From the NCBI RefSeq assembly GCF_014596745.1, contig NZ_JABTCF010000019.1:1-45097 (forward strand): DNA of 45,097 bases, read 5' to 3'. Each line of letters begins with the position of its first letter. Position 1 is the stretch's first letter. Positions 2,029-17,293 of the stretch are shown piece by piece. This DNA is from Maribacter aquimaris. Lineage in GTDB: Bacteria; Bacteroidota; Bacteroidia; Flavobacteriales; Flavobacteriaceae. The notes beneath the pieces are model-generated. The model was not told the origin of the DNA and did not search any database. It worked only from the letters and a program-made list of their open reading frames with translations. The translations under genes and the position numbers were made by a program.

Positions 2029-4651
2029 CACTTTGCTTTGTTTTCTCCCCTTGGGCGTTGGACATATGAAACATTCGAGCCTTTAAAAGCGCTTTTCTTC
2101 CCTGCAAATGTCGCGTGTAGAGCAACTTCGCATTTCCAACTGTCCTTTTCCAGTGCTTTAAAAACAACGTTGCATGTTCCTTGTTTTCCCCAAAGCGATC
2201 AGGGACCACCAAATAGCGCTGAACACCCATAAACCTTCTTAACCAATCCCCCCTTAAAAGTAAGTAACGGGGATTTTCAATCGGTGCAATAACCTGTTCC
2301 AGCGCATTTATGAAAAAGGTGCTTTCGTAGGTTGACATACCCTTGGGTACACAAGAAACCGTGCCCCTTACATCCAAGGAAACCACAATTTCCATATCGG
2401 CCATATTACTGGTCAAAAATCCAAGTTCATTCATGGTGTAAAGGACCGCCCAGCCTATTTTTTGCACATCTTTATGCATACGACCATGGTTGATGTATAA
2501 TTTAAACACCCTAAAGGCCTTAACACCAAAACCAAATAGCAAGGCTGAGATAAGTGTATATATAAACTTCATCCACCCTCCGTGAAGTAAAATATTCAAA
2601 TGCTTTAAGATGAATTCCGGGACAAAGTAGCCTAATGCGATTGACAATTCCAGAAATCCCAATAAAACCATATCCCGATAGTGTAGTCTTTTTTGTACCT
2701 GATAGGAATTCCCACCCTTATAGAATGATTTAAGTTCTTTGACCAGCCCGGTACCTCTGCCAATTGCTTTCTGCCAATTTTCCCGAATGTTATTTCTGTT
2801 TCGGGCAAGGTCAGCACTCTTTCGATTGGCTTTTTCAACTTCACCCCACTCTTTGGGTATTACGAAATCCAGACGATCCATTCCATTGGTTATACGCAGG
2901 GGTTTTGTATTCGATATCCCCATAAAGGCGGTAAACCGCCTATTTAACGTTTCAAGATCCTTCCCCCCTTCCTCATCCGAAGGATCCAAGCAAACCAGAT
3001 GCCAGATTACGGCAGTCTTATCCGGGTTAGGGGCATAGCTTCTAATCGCCCTACCCCGCATTTGGTTTGAGGTTACAAACGAACCTACCGATGATGCTAA
3101 AATCAAGGTATTGATTGCCGGTGCATCCCAACCTTCCCCTAAAAGGGATTTGGTGCCTATCAGTGTTCGTACCTTACCTTTTTGAAAAAGATCCGTTATG
3201 ATTCCAACCAGTGTTTCGGATACTTTGTTCTTCACTTTAATGGCAACAAAATTCAAATCAACGGCGATAGGCTTATGCGTAAAATTGGAACCCCCTAGGC
3301 TGTCACAAATGATTTTAAACACAACCTTACTTACGATGACCAAACTCCCCGTAAGAACAGCCATCGAGGATGGATCATGAAGAGCGATCCTTAATCGGTG
3401 AAATATAGGCAATACCCCTAATTTACTTATCCCCGACACACTGTCATCGGCTGTTTCCAGATATTCTTTCCGAATATAATCCGTAAGTACCACAGTACGT
3501 AAATGCGCTCCCATTTCCACTTCCGCCGCGGTAGCAATTTGCACTATGCTATTGAGTTTACCCGGACTGTTCGAAAGCGTACGGTAAAAAGATCCATTCC
3601 CGATAAGATCCACCCGATGGGTCTTTAAAACGCCTATTTTCCGCAATCTTTTTTCCAATGCCTTAAGACCTTCATCCTTGGCAGTTCCATGATTGCGTTC
3701 CTCAAATAAAATATAATTGAGAAGTATGGCAGCCCAATCATTCGTAAAAGCTGGGAATTCTATGCTATCTTTCCTTTCAAAGCCCAAAACCTTTAACTTT
3801 TGTCGTGGGATTTCCATACCAATGGCATGTAAAAATATCAACAGGGCTGAAAAAAAGGAAGGCTGTTGATAGATTTCGGGTAAAGAATCCCCTGTGTTCA
3901 CATAAAACCGGTGATTCATCAATCGATCAATCAACCAAGTATCGGTTTTTAAACCTTGAACCATTTCGGCAACCTTAAGCCTAAAGTCAACTATAAAATC
4001 TATCGTCAATTGATTGGGAAGTGAAAAATGCACAAAATCCTGATGGGGACATAAATCCCCCTCTTTTACCAAATTGGGTATAGCTATTTCATCATCAACC
4101 TCACCACAGAGGTCAAAATACCTTTTTACCTCGGCCTGACTACTATCAAAAGGGGGCGTGGCCGTTAGTGCTACAACCATAAGTTCTTGATCCTGTTTTA
4201 GGGCAAATAGGCACTTCCACCATTCATTTTTAAGATGATGTGCCTCATCGAGCACAATGGTCTTTATTCCCTGCTTTTTAAAAAATCCAAGGAATTCAGA
4301 TTCAGAAGCCATTCTTTTATAAAAAGCATGCAATCCTTGATAAGTGCTTAAGGTAATGTCCGAAGGCTTGTCAATAGAAAACGATACGTTCCCAAAATCC
4401 CCATTTTCGGTGAAATATTCCTGCAGTCTTTCTTCCCACTGGTTTCTAATGGTCAATGTTGGCGCCAAAATCAAGGTTCTATTCCCGATTTGTCTCAATA
4501 TTTCAAGTCCGAGAAGGGTTTTTCCCGATCCTGGCGGGGCAATCACATGAAGGTGGTTGTCTGCCATATGGGTGGAAAGATTCCTTAAAAAAAACCCTTG
4601 ATACCGCCGCCAGGGAAATCTAAATTTTAAACTTTGAAAACTCGCTACCAA
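2015..4651 (-). CDS. DEAD/DEAH-box superfamily 2 helicase with a hydrophobic segment pair
   Basis: An 878-residue SF2 helicase. Visible motifs are a Q-like WRRYQ (14-18), Walker A APPGSGKT (38-45), DEAH (135-138), motif III-like LTATPP (162-167), and a C-terminal helicase domain with GEGWDAPAINTL and the motif VI-like QMRGRAIRS (about 525-535). After the helicase core come two hydrophobic stretches (about 661-676 and 694-712) and a further domain of about 170 residues that I do not recognise. The start is TTG at 4651; an in-frame stop lies 11 codons upstream with no ATG or GTG between, and the next internal ATG (about residue 29) lies just before Walker A. The gene sits between hemF and hemB in the opposite direction, with no visible link to heme synthesis. 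The substrate, DNA or RNA, cannot be told. Confidence 0.85.
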   Translation of the reverse strand: MVASFQSLKFRFPWRRYQGFFLRNLSTHMADNHLHVIAPPGSGKTLLGLEILRQIGNRTLILAPTLTIRNQWEERLQEYFTENGDFGNVSFSIDKPSDITLSTYQGLHAFYKRMASESEFLGFFKKQGIKTIVLDEAHHLKNEWWKCLFALKQDQELMVVALTATPPFDSSQAEVKRYFDLCGEVDDEIAIPNLVKEGDLCPHQDFVHFSLPNQLTIDFIVDFRLKVAEMVQGLKTDTWLIDRLMNHRFYVNTGDSLPEIYQQPSFFSALLIFLHAIGMEIPRQKLKVLGFERKDSIEFPAFTNDWAAILLNYILFEERNHGTAKDEGLKALEKRLRKIGVLKTHRVDLIGNGSFYRTLSNSPGKLNSIVQIATAAEVEMGAHLRTVVLTDYIRKEYLETADDSVSGISKLGVLPIFHRLRIALHDPSSMAVLTGSLVIVSKVVFKIICDSLGGSNFTHKPIAVDLNFVAIKVKNKVSETLVGIITDLFQKGKVRTLIGTKSLLGEGWDAPAINTLILASSVGSFVTSNQMRGRAIRSYAPNPDKTAVIWHLVCLDPSDEEGGKDLETLNRRFTAFMGISNTKPLRITNGMDRLDFVIPKEWGEVEKANRKSADLARNRNNIRENWQKAIGRGTGLVKELKSFYKGGNSYQVQKRLHYRDMVLLGFLELSIALGYFVPEFILKHLNILLHGGWMKFIYTLISALLFGFGVKAFRVFKLYINHGRMHKDVQKIGWAVLYTMNELGFLTSNMADMEIVVSLDVRGTVSCVPKGMSTYESTFFINALEQVIAPIENPRYLLLRGDWLRRFMGVQRYLVVPDRFGENKEHATLFLKHWKRTVGNAKLLYTRHLQGRKALLKARMFHMSNAQGEKTKQSVIWH

Positions 4652-4830
4652 ATGACAATCGATTAATTTTGATAATGGTAGTTATTCAACGCAAAAGCAT
4701 ATATTTTATTGGGTCAAAGGCCTTTTCTAAAACACATTTTCTTTACTTTGTATATTATTTGGGTCGTATGTAATTATATGACTTCATTGGCAAAATACTA
4801 TTCGATTAATTTTATTATAAAAAGCTGATT

Positions 4831-5820
4831 ATGTATCCTATTATTAGAAATAGAAGACTGCGCGCATCAGAATCCATCAGAAGATTGGTTCGTGAAACGA
4901 TTATAACCCCAGATGACTTTTTAGTCCCTTTATTTGTCGTCGAAGGCAAGAACGTAAAAGAAGAAATCCCTTCAATGCCCAACTACTTTCGGTTTAGTCT
5001 GGACAATCTTGAAAAGGAAGTGAAAGAACTTTGGAAAATGGGACTTTGTTCCGTACTCCTTTTCGTAAAGGTTCCGGAAAATTTAAAGGACAATAAAGGT
5101 ACAGAAGCGTTGAATGCCGAGGGATTGATGCAACGTGCAATAAAAACAATCAAGAATGCCTGTCCTGAAATGTTGGTCATGACCGATGTAGCCCTTGACC
5201 CGTATTCCTCTTATGGCCATGATGGGGTGGTGTCTGGCGGACAAATACTGAACGATGAAAGCGTTGAGATTTTGGCCGAGATGAGTCTATCGCACGCTGT
5301 TGCCGGAGCTGATTTCGTTGCGCCAAGCGATATGATGGATGGCCGTATCCTCGCCATTCGTGAGGCCCTGGAAGATGAAGGTTATCTAAACACCGGGATT
5401 ATGAGTTATAGCGCCAAATACGCCAGCGCCTTTTATGGCCCATTCCGGGATGCGTTGGATTCAGCCCCTGTTGACATCAAGAATGTACCCAAAGACAAAA
5501 AATCCTATCAAATGGACTTTGCCAATCGGTTTGAAGCCATACGTGAAACCCAATTGGATATTGACGAAGGTGCGGATATCGTCATGGTGAAACCTGGACT
5601 TGCCTATTTGGATATTGTCCGTGAAATACGAAATGAGGTTGAGGTCCCAGTGGCCGTCTATCAAGTTTCAGGCGAATATGCGATGGTGAAAGCTGCTGCT
5701 GAAAAAGGTTGGTTAGACCACGATGCAGTTATGATGGAACAACTAACCGCCATAAAAAGGGCAGGTGCCAATATCATCGCCAGTTATTTTGCCAAAGACG
5801 TTATTAAATTAATCAATTAG
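4831..5820 (+). CDS. hemB: Delta-aminolevulinic acid dehydratase (porphobilinogen synthase)
   Basis: HemB condenses two 5-aminolevulinate molecules into porphobilinogen, an early common step of tetrapyrrole synthesis in the cytoplasm. The 329-residue length is typical. The two Schiff-base lysines are visible: Lys196 in MSYSAKYAS and Lys254 in IVMVKPG. The metal-site segment reads DVALDPYSSYGHDG (119-132). The cysteines of zinc-dependent enzymes are replaced by Ala/Asp, which marks the magnesium-dependent (non-zinc) type. It is divergent from the helicase, with a 179-base intergenic region in which I see no perfect TAnnTTTG element. Together with hemF it makes this a heme locus. Confidence 0.97.
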   Translation: MYPIIRNRRLRASESIRRLVRETIITPDDFLVPLFVVEGKNVKEEIPSMPNYFRFSLDNLEKEVKELWKMGLCSVLLFVKVPENLKDNKGTEALNAEGLMQRAIKTIKNACPEMLVMTDVALDPYSSYGHDGVVSGGQILNDESVEILAEMSLSHAVAGADFVAPSDMMDGRILAIREALEDEGYLNTGIMSYSAKYASAFYGPFRDALDSAPVDIKNVPKDKKSYQMDFANRFEAIRETQLDIDEGADIVMVKPGLAYLDIVREIRNEVEVPVAVYQVSGEYAMVKAAAEKGWLDHDAVMMEQLTAIKRAGANIIASYFAKDVIKLIN

Positions 5821-10881: not shown

Positions 10882-12093
10882 ATGTTAGAAAAGAAAGCGA
10901 TAGAATACGAAAAAGTTGTCCTTATCGGGGTCATCAATAAGGAACAAGATCAAGAAAAGGTGAATGAATATCTTGATGAACTTGAATTTCTTACCTACAC
11001 TGCTGGGGGAGAGGTCATGAAGCGCTTTGTACAGCGTGTCGATGTCCCGAATCCAAAGACCCTCATCGGTAGTGGTAAGATGCAGGAGGTAGAGGACTAT
11101 GTGGAAAAAAATGATATAGGCTCCATTATCTTTGATGATGAGCTTTCCCCTGGACAACAACGTAATATTGAAAAACAATTGCGTTGTAAGATTCTGGATC
11201 GTACCAGTCTTATCCTTGACATATTTGCACAACGGGCCCAGACAAGTTATTCCAGAACCCAGGTAGAGTTGGCGCAATATGAATATCTACTTCCCCGTCT
11301 TACTGGATTATGGACACACTTGGAGCGTCAAAAAGGGGGTATCGGAATGCGTGGGCCGGGTGAAACGGAGATTGAAACCGATAGGCGTATAGTTCGTGAC
11401 CGTATTTCATTATTGAAGAAAAAATTGTTGAAGATAGACCGGCAGATGGAAACACAAAGAGGCAATAGAGGCGCTCTTGTACGTGTTGCCCTTGTTGGGT
11501 ATACCAATGTAGGTAAGTCAACATTAATGAATGTCATTAGTAAAAGTGATGTCTTTGCGGAAAATAAACTTTTCGCCACATTAGACACTACCGTACGGAA
11601 AGTCGTCATTGGGAATCTTCCGTTTTTACTCAGTGATACGGTAGGATTCATTCGAAAATTACCCACCCAGTTGGTCGAAAGTTTCAAAAGTACCTTGGAC
11701 GAGGTTCGGGAAGCAGACCTTTTACTGCATGTAGTGGACATCTCACACCCTAACTTTGAGGAACACATAGCCTCTGTAAACAAGATTTTGGATGAAATTG
11801 ACAGTGCAGACAAAAAAACCATTATGGTTTTCAATAAAATAGACCAATATCACCATCAAACCATAGATGATGATGACCTGGTAACCGAACGAACCACAAA
11901 GCATTTCACTATTGAGGATTGGAAACGGACATGGATGCAACGCATGGGGGAAGATGCATTGTTCATTTCAGCACTGAACAAAGAAAACCTTGATGAATTC
12001 CGGAAACGGGTATATGATGTCGTCAGGGATATCCATGTAACGCGATTCCCCTATAACAATTTTCTTTATCCAGAACATTTAGACCAATATTAA
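10882..12093 (+). CDS. hflX: GTPase HflX
   Basis: HflX is a ribosome-binding GTPase that splits stalled or heat-damaged 70S ribosomes. The N-terminal HflX domain carries ELSPGQQRNIEK and the glycine-rich GGIGMRGPGETEIETDRR linker. The G domain has G1 GYTNVGKST (206-214), G3 DTVGF and G4 NKID. The length of 403 residues is normal for Bacteroidota. It is the last protein gene before the small-RNA array, whose first repeated base lies 22 bases past the hflX stop. No terminator of its own is evident before the array. Confidence 0.97.
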   Translation: MLEKKAIEYEKVVLIGVINKEQDQEKVNEYLDELEFLTYTAGGEVMKRFVQRVDVPNPKTLIGSGKMQEVEDYVEKNDIGSIIFDDELSPGQQRNIEKQLRCKILDRTSLILDIFAQRAQTSYSRTQVELAQYEYLLPRLTGLWTHLERQKGGIGMRGPGETEIETDRRIVRDRISLLKKKLLKIDRQMETQRGNRGALVRVALVGYTNVGKSTLMNVISKSDVFAENKLFATLDTTVRKVVIGNLPFLLSDTVGFIRKLPTQLVESFKSTLDEVREADLLLHVVDISHPNFEEHIASVNKILDEIDSADKKTIMVFNKIDQYHHQTIDDDDLVTERTTKHFTIEDWKRTWMQRMGEDALFISALNKENLDEFRKRVYDVVRDIHVTRFPYNNFLYPEHLDQY

Positions 12094-12150
12094 GCCGTTA
12101 AAACCATTGGAAGTAGTGCCGTTCATCGGAGAAATCATACCGTTAATTTT

Positions 12151-12189
12151 TTCACAACATTTTAGGTCGGGTTCACAACATATTTTAGG
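12151..12189 (+). promoter_or_regulatory. Tandem direct repeat upstream of small RNA 1 (possible activator site)
   Basis: TTCACAACATTTTAGG (12151-12166) is followed by TTCACAACATATTTTAGG (12172-12189), about two helical turns apart on one DNA face. The pair recurs at the same place in units 2-4 (for example 12469-12484 and 12490-12507), with TTCACCACA in the first half-site. A single TTCACAACA recurs 37 bases before the promoter of the fifth RNA (13434-13442). Confidence 0.55.
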
Positions 12190-12209
12190 CGAAATCGTCT
12201 AGGCAGACT

Positions 12210-12217
12210 TATCTTTA
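12210..12217 (+). promoter_or_regulatory. Putative -7 element, small RNA 1
   Basis: TATCTTTA, one base from TAnnTTTG, conserved at the same place in units 1-4. Confidence 0.6.
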
Positions 12218-12221
12218 CATC

Positions 12222-12388
12222 ATAATTAAGTGATAGCATTGACCCCAAATCAATTCAAGAACTTAATCGAAAAACCAGTGTGAGTTCCCCAAACGAGCAC
12301 TGATCCTACTAATAGCTACCTGATGAATATCAGAACTGGTATTAACCTACTTAAGAAAAAGCCCTTCCCAAAAAAAAGGGCTTTTTTT
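12222..12388 (+). ncRNA. Putative small RNA, array copy 1 (type A)
   Basis: The inferred transcript is about 167 nt, from a few bases after the -7 element to the end of the terminator T run. Hairpins readable by eye: TTAAGT (12226-12231) with ACTTAA (12261-12266), enclosing ATTGA (12238-12242) with TCAAT (12250-12254) and a CCCCAAA loop; CAGTG (12276-12280) with CACTG (12298-12302) around TTCCCC; CTGAT (12320-12324) with ATCAG (12329-12333). Alternatively ACCAGT (12274-12279) pairs with ACTGGT (12335-12340). A conserved CCTACTTAA (12346-12354) sits just before the terminator; its ACTTAA could also pair with the 5' TTAAGT. No ORF, so non-coding. The function is unknown to me; whether it matches 6S-Flavo or another Rfam model must be tested. 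Confidence 0.7.
12359..12388 (+). terminator. Intrinsic terminator of small RNA 1
   Basis: Stem AAGCCCTT (12359-12366) with AAGGGCTT (12376-12383), loop CCCAAAAAA, followed by a run of T. Confidence 0.85.
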
Positions 12389-12527
12389 ATACCTTAAATC
12401 CTCACGTTATTTTAGTGTAACAACACCTATGAAGTGCCGTTCATCGGAGAAATCATACCGTTAATTTTTTCACCACATTTTAGGTTGGGTTCACAACATA
12501 TTTTAGGCAAAATCATCTAGGCAGACT

Positions 12528-12535
12528 TATCTTTA
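12528..12535 (+). promoter_or_regulatory. Putative -7 element, small RNA 2
   Basis: TATCTTTA, exactly 318 bases after the copy in unit 1. Confidence 0.6.
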
Positions 12536-12539
12536 CATT

Positions 12540-12706
12540 GTAATTAAGTGATAGCAATGACCCCAAATCAATTCAAGAACTTAATCGAAAAACCAGTGTG
12601 AGTTTCCCAAACGAGCACTGATCCTACTAATAGCTACCTGATGAATATCAGAACTGGTATTAACCTACTTAAGAAAAAGCCCTTCCCAAAAAAAAGGGCT
12701 TTTTTT
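12540..12706 (+). ncRNA. Putative small RNA, array copy 2 (type A)
   Basis: Nearly identical to copy 1. Differences include TACATTGTAATT for TACATCATAATT at the 5' end, GCAATGA for GCATTGA (which places one mismatch in the inner first stem), and GTTTCCC for GTTCCCC in the second loop. CCTACTTAA is at 12664-12672, 136 bases from the start of the -7 element as in all other copies. It ends at its own terminator. Confidence 0.7.
12677..12706 (+). terminator. Intrinsic terminator of small RNA 2
   Basis: Same hairpin as in unit 1: AAGCCCTT (12677-12684) with AAGGGCTT (12694-12701) and a T run. Confidence 0.85.
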
Positions 12707-12845
12707 ATACCTTAAATCCTCACGTTATTTTAGTGTAACAACACCTATGAAGTGCCGTTCATCGGAGAAATCGTACCGTTAATTTTTTCACCACATTTTA
12801 GGTTGGGTTCACAACATATTTTAGGCAAAATCATCTAGGCAGACT

Positions 12846-12853
12846 TATCTTTA
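12846..12853 (+). promoter_or_regulatory. Putative -7 element, small RNA 3
   Basis: TATCTTTA, 318 bases after the copy in unit 2. Confidence 0.6.
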
Positions 12854-12857
12854 CATT

Positions 12858-13025
12858 GTAATTAAGTGATAGCATTGATCCCAAATCGATTCAAGAACTT
12901 AACTAGAGAATTAAAGGTTTCCCCAAGCCTTTTTTAACCTACAAATGACTACCGAAGTTTATTCGGACCAAATTTTACCATCCTACTTAACTGAAAAAAG
13001 CTCTTTCCCAAAAAGGGCTTTTTTT
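12858..13025 (+). ncRNA. Putative small RNA, array copy 3 (type B)
   Basis: The 5' hairpin is kept, but its inner stem reads ATTGA/TCGAT, a U-G wobble in place of a U-A pair. After ACTTAA the sequence differs from type A while keeping the architecture: AAAGG (12913-12917) with CCTTT (12928-12932) around a TTTCCCCAAG loop, then CTACC and a hairpin CCGAA (12952-12956) with TTCGG (12962-12966) where type A has CTGAT/ATCAG. CCTACTTAA is at 12982-12990, again 136 bases from the -7 element. The conserved C-rich loops and replaced but intact stems suggest selection on structure. Confidence 0.7.
12998..13025 (+). terminator. Intrinsic terminator of small RNA 3
   Basis: AAGCTCTTT (12998-13006) with AAAGGGCTT (13012-13020), including one G-U pair where units 1 and 2 have C-G; T run follows. 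Confidence 0.85.
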
Positions 13026-13164
13026 ATACCTTAAATCCTCACGTTATTTTAGTGTAACAACACCTATGAAGTGCCGTTCATCGAAGAAATCGTACCGTTA
13101 ATTTTTTCACCACATTTTAGGTTGGGTTCACAACATATTTTAGGCAAAATCATCTAGACGGACT

Positions 13165-13172
13165 TATCTTTA
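13165..13172 (+). promoter_or_regulatory. Putative -7 element, small RNA 4
   Basis: TATCTTTA, 319 bases after the copy in unit 3. Confidence 0.6.
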
Positions 13173-13176
13173 CATC

Positions 13177-13345
13177 ATAATTAAGTGATAGCATTGACCC
13201 CAAATCGATTCAAGAACTTAACTAGAGAATTAAAGGTTTCCCCAAGCCTTTTTTAACCTACAAATGACTACCGAAGTTTATTCGGACCAAATTTTACCAT
13301 CCTACTTAACTGAAAAAAGCTCTTTCCCAAAAAGGGCTTTTTTTT
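13177..13345 (+). ncRNA. Putative small RNA, array copy 4 (type B)
   Basis: Body nearly identical to copy 3, but the 5' end reads TACATCATAATT as in copy 1, a mosaic pattern. CCTACTTAA is at 13301-13309, 136 bases from the -7 element. It ends at its own terminator. The spacer that follows units 1-3 is absent after this last unit. Confidence 0.7.
13317..13345 (+). terminator. Intrinsic terminator of small RNA 4
   Basis: AAGCTCTTT (13317-13325) with AAAGGGCTT (13331-13339), then a T run. Confidence 0.85.
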
Positions 13346-13470
13346 ATGGGATAAAACTACAGGTCCTAAACAATTGGAAAATTCGGTAAACTTGCCATAC
13401 ACTTTAACAAGTTATGCTACAAATCCAGTAGGATTCACAACAATAATTTACTTTTCAATATCAATGCCAT

Positions 13471-13478
13471 TACATTCG
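13471..13478 (+). promoter_or_regulatory. Putative -7 element, fifth small RNA
   Basis: TACATTCG lies 37 bases after a TTCACAACA box, almost the spacing of the array units (38), and 136 bases before CCTACTTAA. It differs from TAnnTTTG at one base. Inferred by position. Confidence 0.4.
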
Positions 13479-13482
13479 TAGT

Positions 13483-13651
13483 GTATTTATGATTTATTAT
13501 CGCGTCCCAATCGGATTATGAGTTAACCTATAAATAAGTATTTGGAATTAGTCCGTTCAAAATTGACAACTAGGATACAATGTTTGACTAACTAATTCGA
13601 TCAAAACCTACTTAATAAAAAAGTCCTGACGAATTCGTCAGGACTTTTTAT
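13483..13651 (+). ncRNA. Putative fifth, diverged member of the small-RNA family
   Basis: The body shares little sequence with units 1-4 but keeps the frame of the design: a TTCACAACA box upstream, a -7-like element, a GTCCCAAT C-rich stretch near the 5' end, an AAATA/TATTT hairpin in the middle, TTTGA/TCAAA near the 3' end, CCTACTTAA at 13607-13615, and a strong terminator. The distance from -7 element to CCTACTTAA is 136 bases, identical to the array. TTTATTA near the 5' end (13492-13498) can pair with TAATAAA after CCTACTT (13613-13619), which would close the molecule. A relative of the array RNAs by inference. Confidence 0.5.
13621..13650 (+). terminator. Perfect palindromic terminator between fifth RNA and DUF3078 gene
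   Basis: AAGTCCTGACG (13621-13631), loop AATT, CGTCAGGACTT (13636-13646), with a T run on the right and an A run on the left, so it can serve both strands. On the minus strand it follows the DUF3078 stop by 21 bases. Confidence 0.9.
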
Positions 13652-13671
13652 TATTATAAATCTATTGGGGA

Positions 13672-14601
13672 TTAAAAGGCGTAGTTCAGGCCAAATAACC
13701 AATACGTCTGTAATTTATCATCAATATTATCGAAAGTAGCGGCAGCATCAGGTGTTGGTCCGTTCAAAGCATAATTAAGCGCTTCCTGCTTATTATCCCT
13801 TAGTCCAAACTCAAAACCTAGTCCAATCCCATTCCAAATGGTGTAACCGAAAGAGTTGATCCAAGTCCAGTTGGACAAATCTGACGATTTATAGCTTTGG
13901 AACATAGAAAGATTGGTCTTGAAGTTTACTTTACCTATTTTTCGGGTGTAATCGGCAACGATCTTGGCACCAAGGGAAGATTCGAAAATATCATCCTCAC
14001 TACTGAAAACAAAATTATAGTTTAAAGGGTGGATCACCACTACCAAATCGGTAATTGGTGTCCATGTAGCACCAACACCTATATCCAAATACCCTGGATC
14101 GTTGAAGTTGCTTAAAATGGTAGTTCTGTATTCCGCTAAGGTTGATATGGCGAATTTTTCACTGATTTTTCGCCCGTAAAGTGATGTAATGTTAAATACA
14201 TCCGTAGCTTGCTTAAAGCTATCATCGTCAGCAGGGTCATCCTTGTCATCGAATTTCACCCAACCCAAGTTGATGTTTCCAGAGTTTCTCCAGAAAAACT
14301 TCTCTTGGTTAAGATTGGCAAAACCATTGATCGTAACCCCAATATTACCGGCATCGGAATTGGCGGCATCTTTTGAATACCAATTGTTGAAACTGGAAAG
14401 GTTGGCCCCAATAGTCCCAAATGCCCCTTTTTTCCAACCTGGAAGGGCATTGATTTGTGCTTGTAGGGCGTCTACCCTACCTTGAATTGCAGCTATCGAA
14501 TCCTTTTTAGGTCCTTGCAAGGCCTTAAGTTCATCGGCAGTCTGCGCGTAAGTAGCCGATAAGGCCAAAAACGCAGTTAATGTTACTACTAAATTTTTCA
14601 T
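13672..14601 (-). CDS. DUF3078 family outer-membrane beta-barrel protein
   Basis: A 309-residue secreted protein with a clear signal peptide (MKNLVVTLTAFLALSATYAQ). A short coiled-coil-like segment (KKDSIAAIQGRVDALQAQIN) is followed by alternating hydrophobic strands and a C-terminal aromatic residue (LFGLNYAF), as in outer-membrane barrels. I recognise it as DUF3078, which in flavobacteria often lies beside the suf genes. The function is unknown. A full promoter lies just upstream, so it can be transcribed apart from suf. Confidence 0.8.
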   Translation of the reverse strand: MKNLVVTLTAFLALSATYAQTADELKALQGPKKDSIAAIQGRVDALQAQINALPGWKKGAFGTIGANLSSFNNWYSKDAANSDAGNIGVTINGFANLNQEKFFWRNSGNINLGWVKFDDKDDPADDDSFKQATDVFNITSLYGRKISEKFAISTLAEYRTTILSNFNDPGYLDIGVGATWTPITDLVVVIHPLNYNFVFSSEDDIFESSLGAKIVADYTRKIGKVNFKTNLSMFQSYKSSDLSNWTWINSFGYTIWNGIGLGFEFGLRDNKQEALNYALNGPTPDAAATFDNIDDKLQTYWLFGLNYAF

Positions 14602-16066: not shown

Positions 16067-17293
16067 TCAAAGCAACATTGCCTTGGCCCGTTTTATTCCG
16101 GCAACCAAAACATCGACCTCATCCTTGGTATTATAAAAACTTAAACTGGCACGTACGGTACCCGGAATCTTATAGAAGTCCATTATTGGTTGGGCACAAT
16201 GGTGTCCTGTACGAACAGCGATTCCCAATTTATCCAGAATGGAGCCCATATCATACGGGTGTATCCCCTCTATATTAAAGGAAATCACGGATGTTTTAGA
16301 TTTTGACGTCCCGTAAATACGTAATCCCTCGATGGTCAACAATTGCTCGGTTGCATAGTGAAGAAGTTCATGTTCATAAGCTGCAATCTCCTTAAAACCA
16401 ATGGCATTCATATAATCCAAGGCTGCACCAAAGGCGATTCCTCCACAAATATTGGGTGTACCCGCTTCAAACTTATGGGGTAAATCGGCATATGTGGTTT
16501 TTGCAAAGGTGACTTCGGCAATCATTTCACCACCTCCTTGATAGGGAGGTAATTTATTGAGCCATTCTTCCTTGCCGTACAACATACCCTCTCCTGTAGG
16601 GCCACACATTTTATGGGCGGAAACGGTATAAAAATCAACATCCAATTCCTGTACATCCGCTTTAATGTGGGGTGCGGCCTGTGCACCGTCTATCAATACC
16701 GCAGCACCCACTTCATGGGCTGCATCGATTATTGTTTTGATCGGATTTACCGTTCCCAAGGCGTTAGACACGTGGTTACAGAAAACCAATTTGGTTTCCC
16801 CTGACAATAATTTATAGTATTCATCCAAAAGCAATTCCCCCTCCTCACTCATGGGAATTACCTTTAAGATTGCCCCGGTGCGTTCGCACAGCATCTGCCA
16901 AGGAACGATATTGGAATGGTGTTCCATGGCCGAAACGATAAGTTCATCCCCTGCCTTTAAAATAGACGAAAAGCCATTTGCCACTAGATTGATACTATGC
17001 GTGGTTCCTGAAGTGAAAATGACCTCATAGGGCTTCGCCGCGTTAAAATGCTTTTGGATCTTAATACGCGCCTGTTCGTATTTATCGGTCGCTTCTTGCG
17101 ATAACGCATGTACACCCCGATGTATATTGGCATTGTAATTACTATAATAATCTACAATGACATCGATTACCTGTTGTGGTGTCTGCGAAGTTGCCGCATT
17201 GTCAAAATAGACCAAAGGATTCCCATTGACCTTACGGTTCAGAATCGGAAAATCTTTTCGGATTGTTATTGGATTAAAAGTCGTTTTTTCCAT
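16067..17293 (-). CDS. sufS: Cysteine desulfurase SufS
   Basis: A PLP-dependent class V aminotransferase-fold enzyme that takes sulfur from cysteine for Fe-S cluster building. Visible are the N-terminal YFDNAATSQTP, EHHSN with the catalytic histidine, the PLP lysine in SAHKMCGPTG (Lys228) and the active-site loop RTGHHCAQP (Cys366). I place the start at the ATG at 17293, giving MEKTTFNPITIRKDFP and 408 residues. A TTG four codons earlier would overlap sufD. From this ATG the gene begins one base after the sufD stop (TGAAATG), a sign of translational coupling. Confidence 0.95.
   Translation of the reverse strand: MEKTTFNPITIRKDFPILNRKVNGNPLVYFDNAATSQTPQQVIDVIVDYYSNYNANIHRGVHALSQEATDKYEQARIKIQKHFNAAKPYEVIFTSGTTHSINLVANGFSSILKAGDELIVSAMEHHSNIVPWQMLCERTGAILKVIPMSEEGELLLDEYYKLLSGETKLVFCNHVSNALGTVNPIKTIIDAAHEVGAAVLIDGAQAAPHIKADVQELDVDFYTVSAHKMCGPTGEGMLYGKEEWLNKLPPYQGGGEMIAEVTFAKTTYADLPHKFEAGTPNICGGIAFGAALDYMNAIGFKEIAAYEHELLHYATEQLLTIEGLRIYGTSKSKTSVISFNIEGIHPYDMGSILDKLGIAVRTGHHCAQPIMDFYKIPGTVRASLSFYNTKDEVDVLVAGIKRAKAMLL

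Follow-up and report, generated by a model that had tools for sequence, protein, structure and literature searches.

What is the run of repeated units that begins 3′ of hflX and stops short of a convergent DUF3078 gene, and what might it do for its host? The window, meaning the whole 45,097-nt stretch of Maribacter aquimaris DNA analyzed here, is the entire contig C11. Tandem Repeats Finder reports a period of 318 with 3.5 copies and 91% matches at 12115-13221, which is more than chance would give. The initial annotation described four small-RNA units. All four are confirmed by repeat finding and by their boxes, lying at 12115-13345, but that description has to be amended in that the bodies are of two types and a diverged fifth unit follows at 13413-13652. 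Units 1-4 each consist of operator boxes, a −7 element, a non-coding body of about 167 nt, and a terminator, and each carries TTCACMACA-N12-TTCACAACA, TATCTTTAC, and GGGCTTTTTTT (Table 1). Body A belongs to units 1-2 and body B to units 3-4, with an identity of 97.5% within each pair and 79-84% across pairs, the divergence being in the middle of the body. In unit 5, the intact half-site is at 13434. The RNA starts previously placed at 12222, 12540, 12858, and 13177 come out the same when recomputed from the position of the sigma-A −7 box, and from the computed starts to the terminators the RNAs of units 1-4 would be 167-169 nt long. The longest open reading frame overlapping 12215-13655, allowing an ATG, GTG, or TTG start, has 44 aa. 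A separate 201-bp tandem repeat of 2.4 copies is found at 1-491, at the contig edge.

Table 1. Features of the array and its neighbors, with the related type III loci elsewhere in the genome
Feature	Position	Strand	Evidence
hflX, 403 aa, conserved upstream neighbor	10882..12093	+	Pfam GTP-bdg_N, GTP-bdg_M, MMR_HSR1; synteny
Unit 1 distal half-sites CCGTTCATC (12119) and CCGTTAAT (12140), 21 bp apart	12119..12147	+	Same in units 2-4 at 12437, 12755, 13074
Unit 1 proximal operator TTCACAACA-N12-TTCACAACA	12151..12180	+	Operator scan, promoter alignment
Unit 1 −7 element TATCTTTAC	12210..12218	+	TA..TT invariant in promoter alignment
Unit 1 predicted sRNA, type I, body A	12222..12388	+	Fold z −5.26; covariance-model match, itself a training sequence
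Unit 1 predicted loops	Hairpin 1 CCCCAAA 12243-12249; hairpin 2 12287-12291; terminator at end	+	Predicted fold
Unit 2 operator	12469..12498	+	Operator scan
Unit 2 predicted sRNA, type I, body A	12540..12706	+	−7 at 12528-12536; covariance-model match
Unit 3 operator	12787..12816	+	Operator scan
Unit 3 predicted sRNA, type I, body B	12858..13025	+	−7 at 12846-12854; covariance-model match; fold z −2.74
Unit 4 operator	13106..13135	+	Operator scan
Unit 4 predicted sRNA, type I, body B	13177..13345	+	−7 at 13165-13173; covariance-model match
Unit 5 operator, half-site 1 degenerate TATGCTACA, half-site 2 TTCACAACA	13413..13442	+	Sequence match
Unit 5 predicted sRNA, type II, diverged, 3′ end approximate	13483..13652	+	−7 TACATTCGT at 13471-13479; terminator 13618-13649; fold z −4.55 (13478-13652)
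DUF3078 protein gene, conserved convergent neighbor	13672..14601	−	PF11276; synteny
Predicted type III RNA loci, same genome	L191:5200-5377; also L047, L048, L060, L061	− (L191)	Core ×5, each behind an operator

The promoter can be read against two published descriptions, each taken from partial text: the sigma-A −7 box lies at −12 to −5 in Flavobacterium psychrophilum (PMC9723704), and the sites bound by LytTR dimers are 9-bp repeats with 12 bp between them (PMC2766830). The array promoter consists of 9-bp direct repeats 12 bp apart, placed 58-59 bp before the −7 element. Units 1-4 have this LytTR-type arrangement intact, and unit 5 has it with one degenerate half-site. From 113 matches, 105 were kept after dropping units without 100 upstream bases, and merging of duplicates left 87 non-redundant units with the consensus TTt.tcgga.aAAa..aaCC.tT.aTaTTTTTCACAACA, 12 bases, TTCACAACAatAATTTAG, ~20 bases, TA..TTTACAtT. 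Within it, a strong direct-repeat pair is preceded by a weaker one, each with its repeats 21 bp apart; the two sets fall at −88/−67 and −58/−37, the distal pair being the less uniform. Since units 1-4 carry an identical operator at identical spacing, the idea that the copies are under separate control is disfavored; the companion idea of a high RNA dose is plausible from the layout.

The exact TTCACMACA-N12-TTCACAACA occurs at eight places in this genome, four of them in the array. Relaxing the match to 3 mismatches gives 42 sites versus 19 for the reversed control, only about a twofold excess. A −7-like element was sought at offsets 52-63 in the 26 non-array operator loci and is present in 11, always at offset 58 or 59, with five of the 11 representing one RNA family; the other 15, which include L035 with an exact box match, do not have it. 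A tighter pattern, NWAATTTAG followed by 17-23 bases and the −7, scored 0 in the genome and 0 in the control; the array units read ATATTTTAGG there. Generic consensus scanning of 12000-13700 finds 3 sigma-70-like promoters versus 6.0 in shuffles, no excess, the sigma-70 hexamers being the wrong promoter type for the array. The same kind of scan over the same interval finds 1 terminator, that of unit 5, versus 1.3 in shuffles, again no excess. For units 1 and 3, the predicted folds do show the terminator hairpins, and the scan may have passed over them on account of a 9-nt loop in unit 1 and a paired T run in unit 3.

The initial annotation could not assign the RNA to a known family and named 6S-Flavo and Flavo-1 as the ones to exclude. 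At the sensitivity used, that assessment holds, with 0 Rfam matches at gathering score in the window and 0 in 29 further loci (17 + 12). A permissive scan of 12080-13680 at E = 10 returned 43 rows, all under the gathering score with a lowest E of 0.015, and neither 6S-Flavo nor Flavo-1 is among them; we judge these rows to be chance. Rfam includes LhrC, the Listeria family taken up below, and no LhrC row appears in that scan.

The next point of interest is how far the units extend beyond this genome. Of 60 near genomes, 18 including the own one were matched by DNA search, five of them by short promoter or terminator stretches only. A chance match on the window's minus strand near 16133 was set aside. 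A covariance model, R1, made from the −7 box and the first ~100 nt of 23 sequences in 13 genomes, matches 10 of 12 same-genus genomes, although by construction all ten are training sources. In the family it matches at least 37 of 397 genomes, representing 26 of the 237 genera, a lower bound given the stricter filters applied. Six of the 37 are training sources (G000, G008, G009, G012, G022, G029) and 31 are not; 25 have two to five matches and 12 have one. Seeking the unit after hflX in related genomes, as had been proposed, finds it in many genera, the typical location being between hflX and the DUF3078 gene. Operator matches at up to 4 mismatches are present in 37 of 37 distinct hflX-DUF3078 intergenic regions, loci that mostly entered the set through RNA or promoter matches, and 34 have two or more. 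The five operators here are the most in any compact region, and one other region has five spread over 6.9 kb. Another location accounts for 26 of the 105 distinct units, at loci without a detected hflX or DUF3078 gene; eight of these adjoin a gene like the Pfam DJ-1_PfpI gene of L157, and six are near a small lipoprotein-like gene or its neighbor, which from its sequence alone we take to be ileS. The orthologous array of M. polysiphoniae (G007, in L009 and L131) is partly a run of N, a gap or mask, leaving its copy number unreadable.

These distributions bear on whether the units might be a REP/MITE-like repetitive element in which the promoter and terminator signals are incidental. Near-identical tandem copies over a short stretch would fit such an element, but promoter spacing, stems, loops, and terminators are kept at the same site over 26 genera with divergent sequence between them, and the RNA 5′ pattern has no exact match in viral contigs. 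We regard the repetitive element as highly improbable, and the original view that this is a gene array and not a passive repeat is well supported. A viral origin was set aside on the same absence of exact matches in viral contigs.

The candidate for the factor that reads the operator is encoded on contig C21. Its domains are Response_reg and LytTR by Pfam, its gene (L191:5452-6210) adjoins a TPR-HisKA_2 histidine kinase gene, and two exact operator places sit between the two genes. Also between them, in L191 at about 4600-5060, are two long near-identical repeats. Matches to the regulator at E = 1e-45 or better are found in 96 of 397 genomes, with 71 at 78% identity or more (one being a 193-aa fragment), and all 37 R1-positive genomes fall within these 71. 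Of the 30 best-scoring orthologue loci, 29 have an operator (3 mismatches at most) with a −7 at 57-59 on the downstream side of the regulator gene. An operator with a −7 is likewise found there in 7 of 8 additional core loci and in 9 of the 12 loci with a diverged regulator (57-78%). Counting both strands, the 30 regulator loci (224 kb) contain 41 sites at the 3-mismatch limit, versus 0 for the 30 hflX loci of regulator-less genomes (251 kb; one more at 4 mismatches).

In the 1.5 kb that follow hflX, with up to 4 mismatches allowed, 24 of 30 genomes that bear the regulator but have no R1 match contain the operator, versus 0 of 30 regulator-less genomes, 10 of which carry a distant paralogue at 36-45% identity. 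Two of the other 4 regulator-bearing genomes also have it, for a total of 26 of 34 without an R1 match. Among 15 genomes taken beyond the two sets of 30, the result is 2 of 3 for those with an 80-87% regulator and 0 of 12 for those with a 57-78% regulator, and because the latter have no operator there, the array after hflX is a later addition. An HflX tree, made by a quick method, splits regulator-bearing from regulator-less genomes by one branch with an SH-aLRT of 99; it excludes partial and identical HflX rows and the 57-78% genomes, and it counts RNA-bearing rows as regulator-bearing, several of them (e.g., G002, G003, and named records) by assumption. Because the regulator-bearing genomes are one clade, the presence/absence correlation counts as one event, and we do not count the joint presence of RNA and regulator (Fisher p 1e-32) as independent evidence. 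That the operator sits next to the regulator gene is stronger evidence by sequence comparison, and a single-clade event does not explain it; the most likely activator of the array is this conserved LytTR response regulator.

In 29 of 30 genomes, the promoter behind the regulator precedes a second multicopy RNA family, here called type III, with the core CATTTTCATATAGTGTTC and about 100 nt to the terminator as read. Type III loci have 0 Rfam matches at gathering score. With up to 1 mismatch allowed, the core occurs in 79 of 397 genomes, namely, the 71 that bear the regulator and eight others with one match each, which among the matches listed has one mismatch in six; the reversed control gives 0. 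Type III RNAs also occur in tandem arrays: G382 has three at a spacing of 231-232 bp and G379 has four at 244-247 bp. In L284 at 2404-3982 on the minus strand, from a genome with a 76% regulator, the regulator gene is followed by five operators, of which the last four are spaced at 230-237 bp, and these operators precede other RNAs with CCCAAAT or CCCAGAT.

It could be that the boxes are bound by some other factor, either a LytTR paralogue or an unrelated regulator, with the regulator gene simply lying near one target. The link between regulator and box is drawn from sequence, several genomes also encode paralogues at 36-45% identity, and the repeat sets at −88/−67 and −58/−37 could serve two factors. 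We consider this unlikely in view of how regularly the operator is found beside this particular regulator, in core and diverged loci alike, and of a type III core that is present in 71 of 71 genomes with a regulator of at least 78%.

The survey of what lies downstream of operator sites, from which sites with fewer than 200 bases downstream were dropped, also turns up short coding sequences. A conserved 35-aa open reading frame is found behind three operators (L018, with MEAQINHAPIEEEIQVYKNDFFSGVVLLTKKLFML, L033, and L036), its leader carries CCCAAATC or CCCCAAAC, and it is possibly a small protein of the same regulon. L046 near 1600-1850 has adjacent frames of 32 and 33 aa, both with LNEIL, behind one operator.

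The predicted fold of the type I RNA has two hairpins whose loops show CCCCAAA and CCCC, with an outer stem UUAAGU/ACUUAA closing the first. Covariation was tested on a hand-written structure of 11 pairs against 500 shuffles. Three measures lie beyond 500 of 500 shuffles: cells pairing, at 81.7% versus 74.4% shuffled; cells changed on both sides, at 23 versus 8.4; and the covariation score, at 0.307 versus 0.172. The other two of the five measures do not exceed the shuffles, with double-change pairs at 4 versus 4.4 and further pair types at 13 versus 14.7, and sliding the structure by +1 to +3 columns gives more double-change pairs (6-7) than the true register (4). RNAalifold alone retains the outer stem and part of the terminator only. 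Two of the 25 RNAs, L016 and L029, have insertions and were excluded from sets A2 and A3. The one at L029:1593-1715, from a same-genus genome, has the palindrome CCCGATAGTTATCGGG inserted in hairpin 1, a natural disruption of the loop. Redundant unpaired C-rich sites in each RNA are seen by alignment and predicted fold only, and the C-rich loops are likely to be the working parts.

We asked how the C-rich element is distributed among transcripts. When the first 100 nt of each transcript are considered, 85 of 103 type I RNAs carry CCCAAATC, as do 1 of 23 type III RNAs, a family that otherwise lacks it, and 32 of 129 others (24 of 107 once thinned). It is in 0 of 669 gene 5′ flanks, these flanks coming from the same loci and not from a random sample of the genome. 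The 129 others include 60 at hflX or DUF3078, many of which are type II or diverged type I RNAs. Divided by location, CCCAAATC occurs in 19 of 60 at hflX/DUF3078, 6 of 53 at the regulator, 2 of 8 at own-genome operators, and 5 of 8 elsewhere; the shorter CCCAA occurs in 45 of 60, 22 of 53, 5 of 8, and 5 of 8, respectively, and in 67 of 669 flanks. Of the 69 operator-driven transcripts outside the hflX locus, 32 contain CCCAA and 13 contain CCCAAATC, against the flank figures of 67 and 0 of 669.

Sequence comparison establishes the array, its promoter architecture, its conservation, the hairpins, and the operator beside the regulator. The best full explanation, to which we give a probability of roughly 0.6, is that this is a five-gene small-RNA array thrown by a LytTR two-component switch and acting in trans through C-rich loops. 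Each of the five genes, four of type I and one of type II, would have its own activator-dependent sigma-A promoter and its own terminator. A two-component signal would make the LytTR regulator active, its dimer would occupy the 9-bp repeats 12 bp apart that end about 42 bp before the start, and all of the small-RNA promoters would fire at once, with a dose that scales with copy number. The RNAs would then work in trans by means of the repeated unpaired CCCCAAA(UC) elements in their hairpin loops. From the comparative picture, we infer transcription, binding by the LytTR regulator, dose, partner, and targets.

To our knowledge, FopS is the nearest multicopy family in the phylum. FopS/GibS of Bacteroides thetaiotaomicron is likewise a multicopy small-RNA family in Bacteroidota, and the partial text of its description (PMC11697453) gives 14 FopS members with canonical sigma promoters, bound by RbpB and repressing SusC-like mRNAs. 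That text nowhere uses the word "tandem," and we set the family apart from the array by description. Rfp18 of F. psychrophilum is likewise a structured small RNA, conserved in a Flavobacteriaceae genus, and it too is compared by description, the partial text (PMC9723704) being without the term "LytTR." The LytTR regulons of SilA and AgrA likewise have 9-bp direct repeats with a 12-bp separation upstream of activated promoters, and SilA's own site has 10-bp repeats with an 11-bp spacer, again by partial text (PMC2766830). Unlike in those regulons, many promoters here precede apparent small RNAs, and the regulator gene adjoins a TPR-HisKA_2 kinase gene. LhrC1-5 of Listeria monocytogenes, as far as the partial text extends (PMC4132741), is likewise multicopy, dependent on a two-component system (LisRK), and endowed with redundant C-rich loop sites. 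Multiple copies behind related promoters are a further trait that the array shares with LhrC; it differs in the LytTR-type operator, in CCCCAAA loops where LhrC has UCCC, and in phylum. A search of open-license PMC papers, by title or start of abstract, for LytTR with flavobacterial or Bacteroidetes small RNAs and for Zobellia or Maribacter small RNAs found no LytTR system with mostly small RNAs among its conserved targets. The recurrence of the promoter beside one conserved regulator gene in relatives points to an undescribed small-RNA control system whose overall design would resemble that of LhrC/LisR. Small-RNA control in Bacteroidota is little mapped, and the present result supplies a candidate regulator, an operator that can be searched for, and RNA families located in dozens of genomes.

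What the loops bind is the remaining objective, and the LhrC precedent supplies one answer. If the RNAs are LhrC-like antisense RNAs, the C-rich loops would be redundant seeds that pair with G-rich mRNA starts and block translation, with LytTR setting only the dose. Alignment and predicted fold give each RNA two loops with CCC(C), and LhrC, in the portion of the paper available, binds G-rich sequence before the start codon via three UCCC sites that lie in both loops and in the segment joining them (PMC4132741). The loop complement GATTTGGGGT is also commoner than its reversed control, 31 versus 9 in this genome and 18 versus 7 in G009, but the count takes in sense copies on the opposite strand, three of which are in this array. 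Among the 30 of 49 such places examined, 22 are inside open reading frames and 8 are intergenic, two of the latter being the small RNAs themselves, and a clear set of start-site targets was not found among the 30. Nor do antisense seeds predict the sense element in the other operator-driven transcripts. Antisense pairing keeps a real but minority share of our expectation.

The other answer takes its model from Csr/Rsm-type small RNAs, which titrate a protein by a repeated loop motif shared with regulated mRNA leaders. Here, the loop element is common to part of the other operator-driven transcripts. The loops would bind a shared partner that reads the same element in co-regulated leaders, making the array a Csr-like sink; we hold this tentatively, at somewhat short of even odds. 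The sink has only a slight edge over antisense pairing, because some of the other operator-driven transcripts also contain the sense element; the 60 other sites at hflX or DUF3078, which are partly diverged type I or type II RNAs, take a little away from that edge. A wider proposal is doubtful: that in a marine Flavobacteriaceae clade the LytTR output is largely non-coding, comprising multicopy small RNAs (types I to III, together with others found next to the regulator) as well as 32-35-aa peptides, all from one promoter type of rigid spacing, with a common CCCCAAAUC in many RNAs as the site of a putative RNA-binding partner, in a Csr-like circuit working on C-rich loops.

Two further sites came out of these searches. 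Among the 30 places examined, one intergenic loop-complement site recurs in both genomes (L326 and L319), where a conserved ACCCCAAATC is on the dnaA-like strand between genes that, from their sequence, we take to be dnaA and a thioesterase gene. In L332 near 1501 (G000:C3:97726), AACCCCAAATCTTACCATAACTTAACC is located in the own genome away from the array and resembles type I modules.
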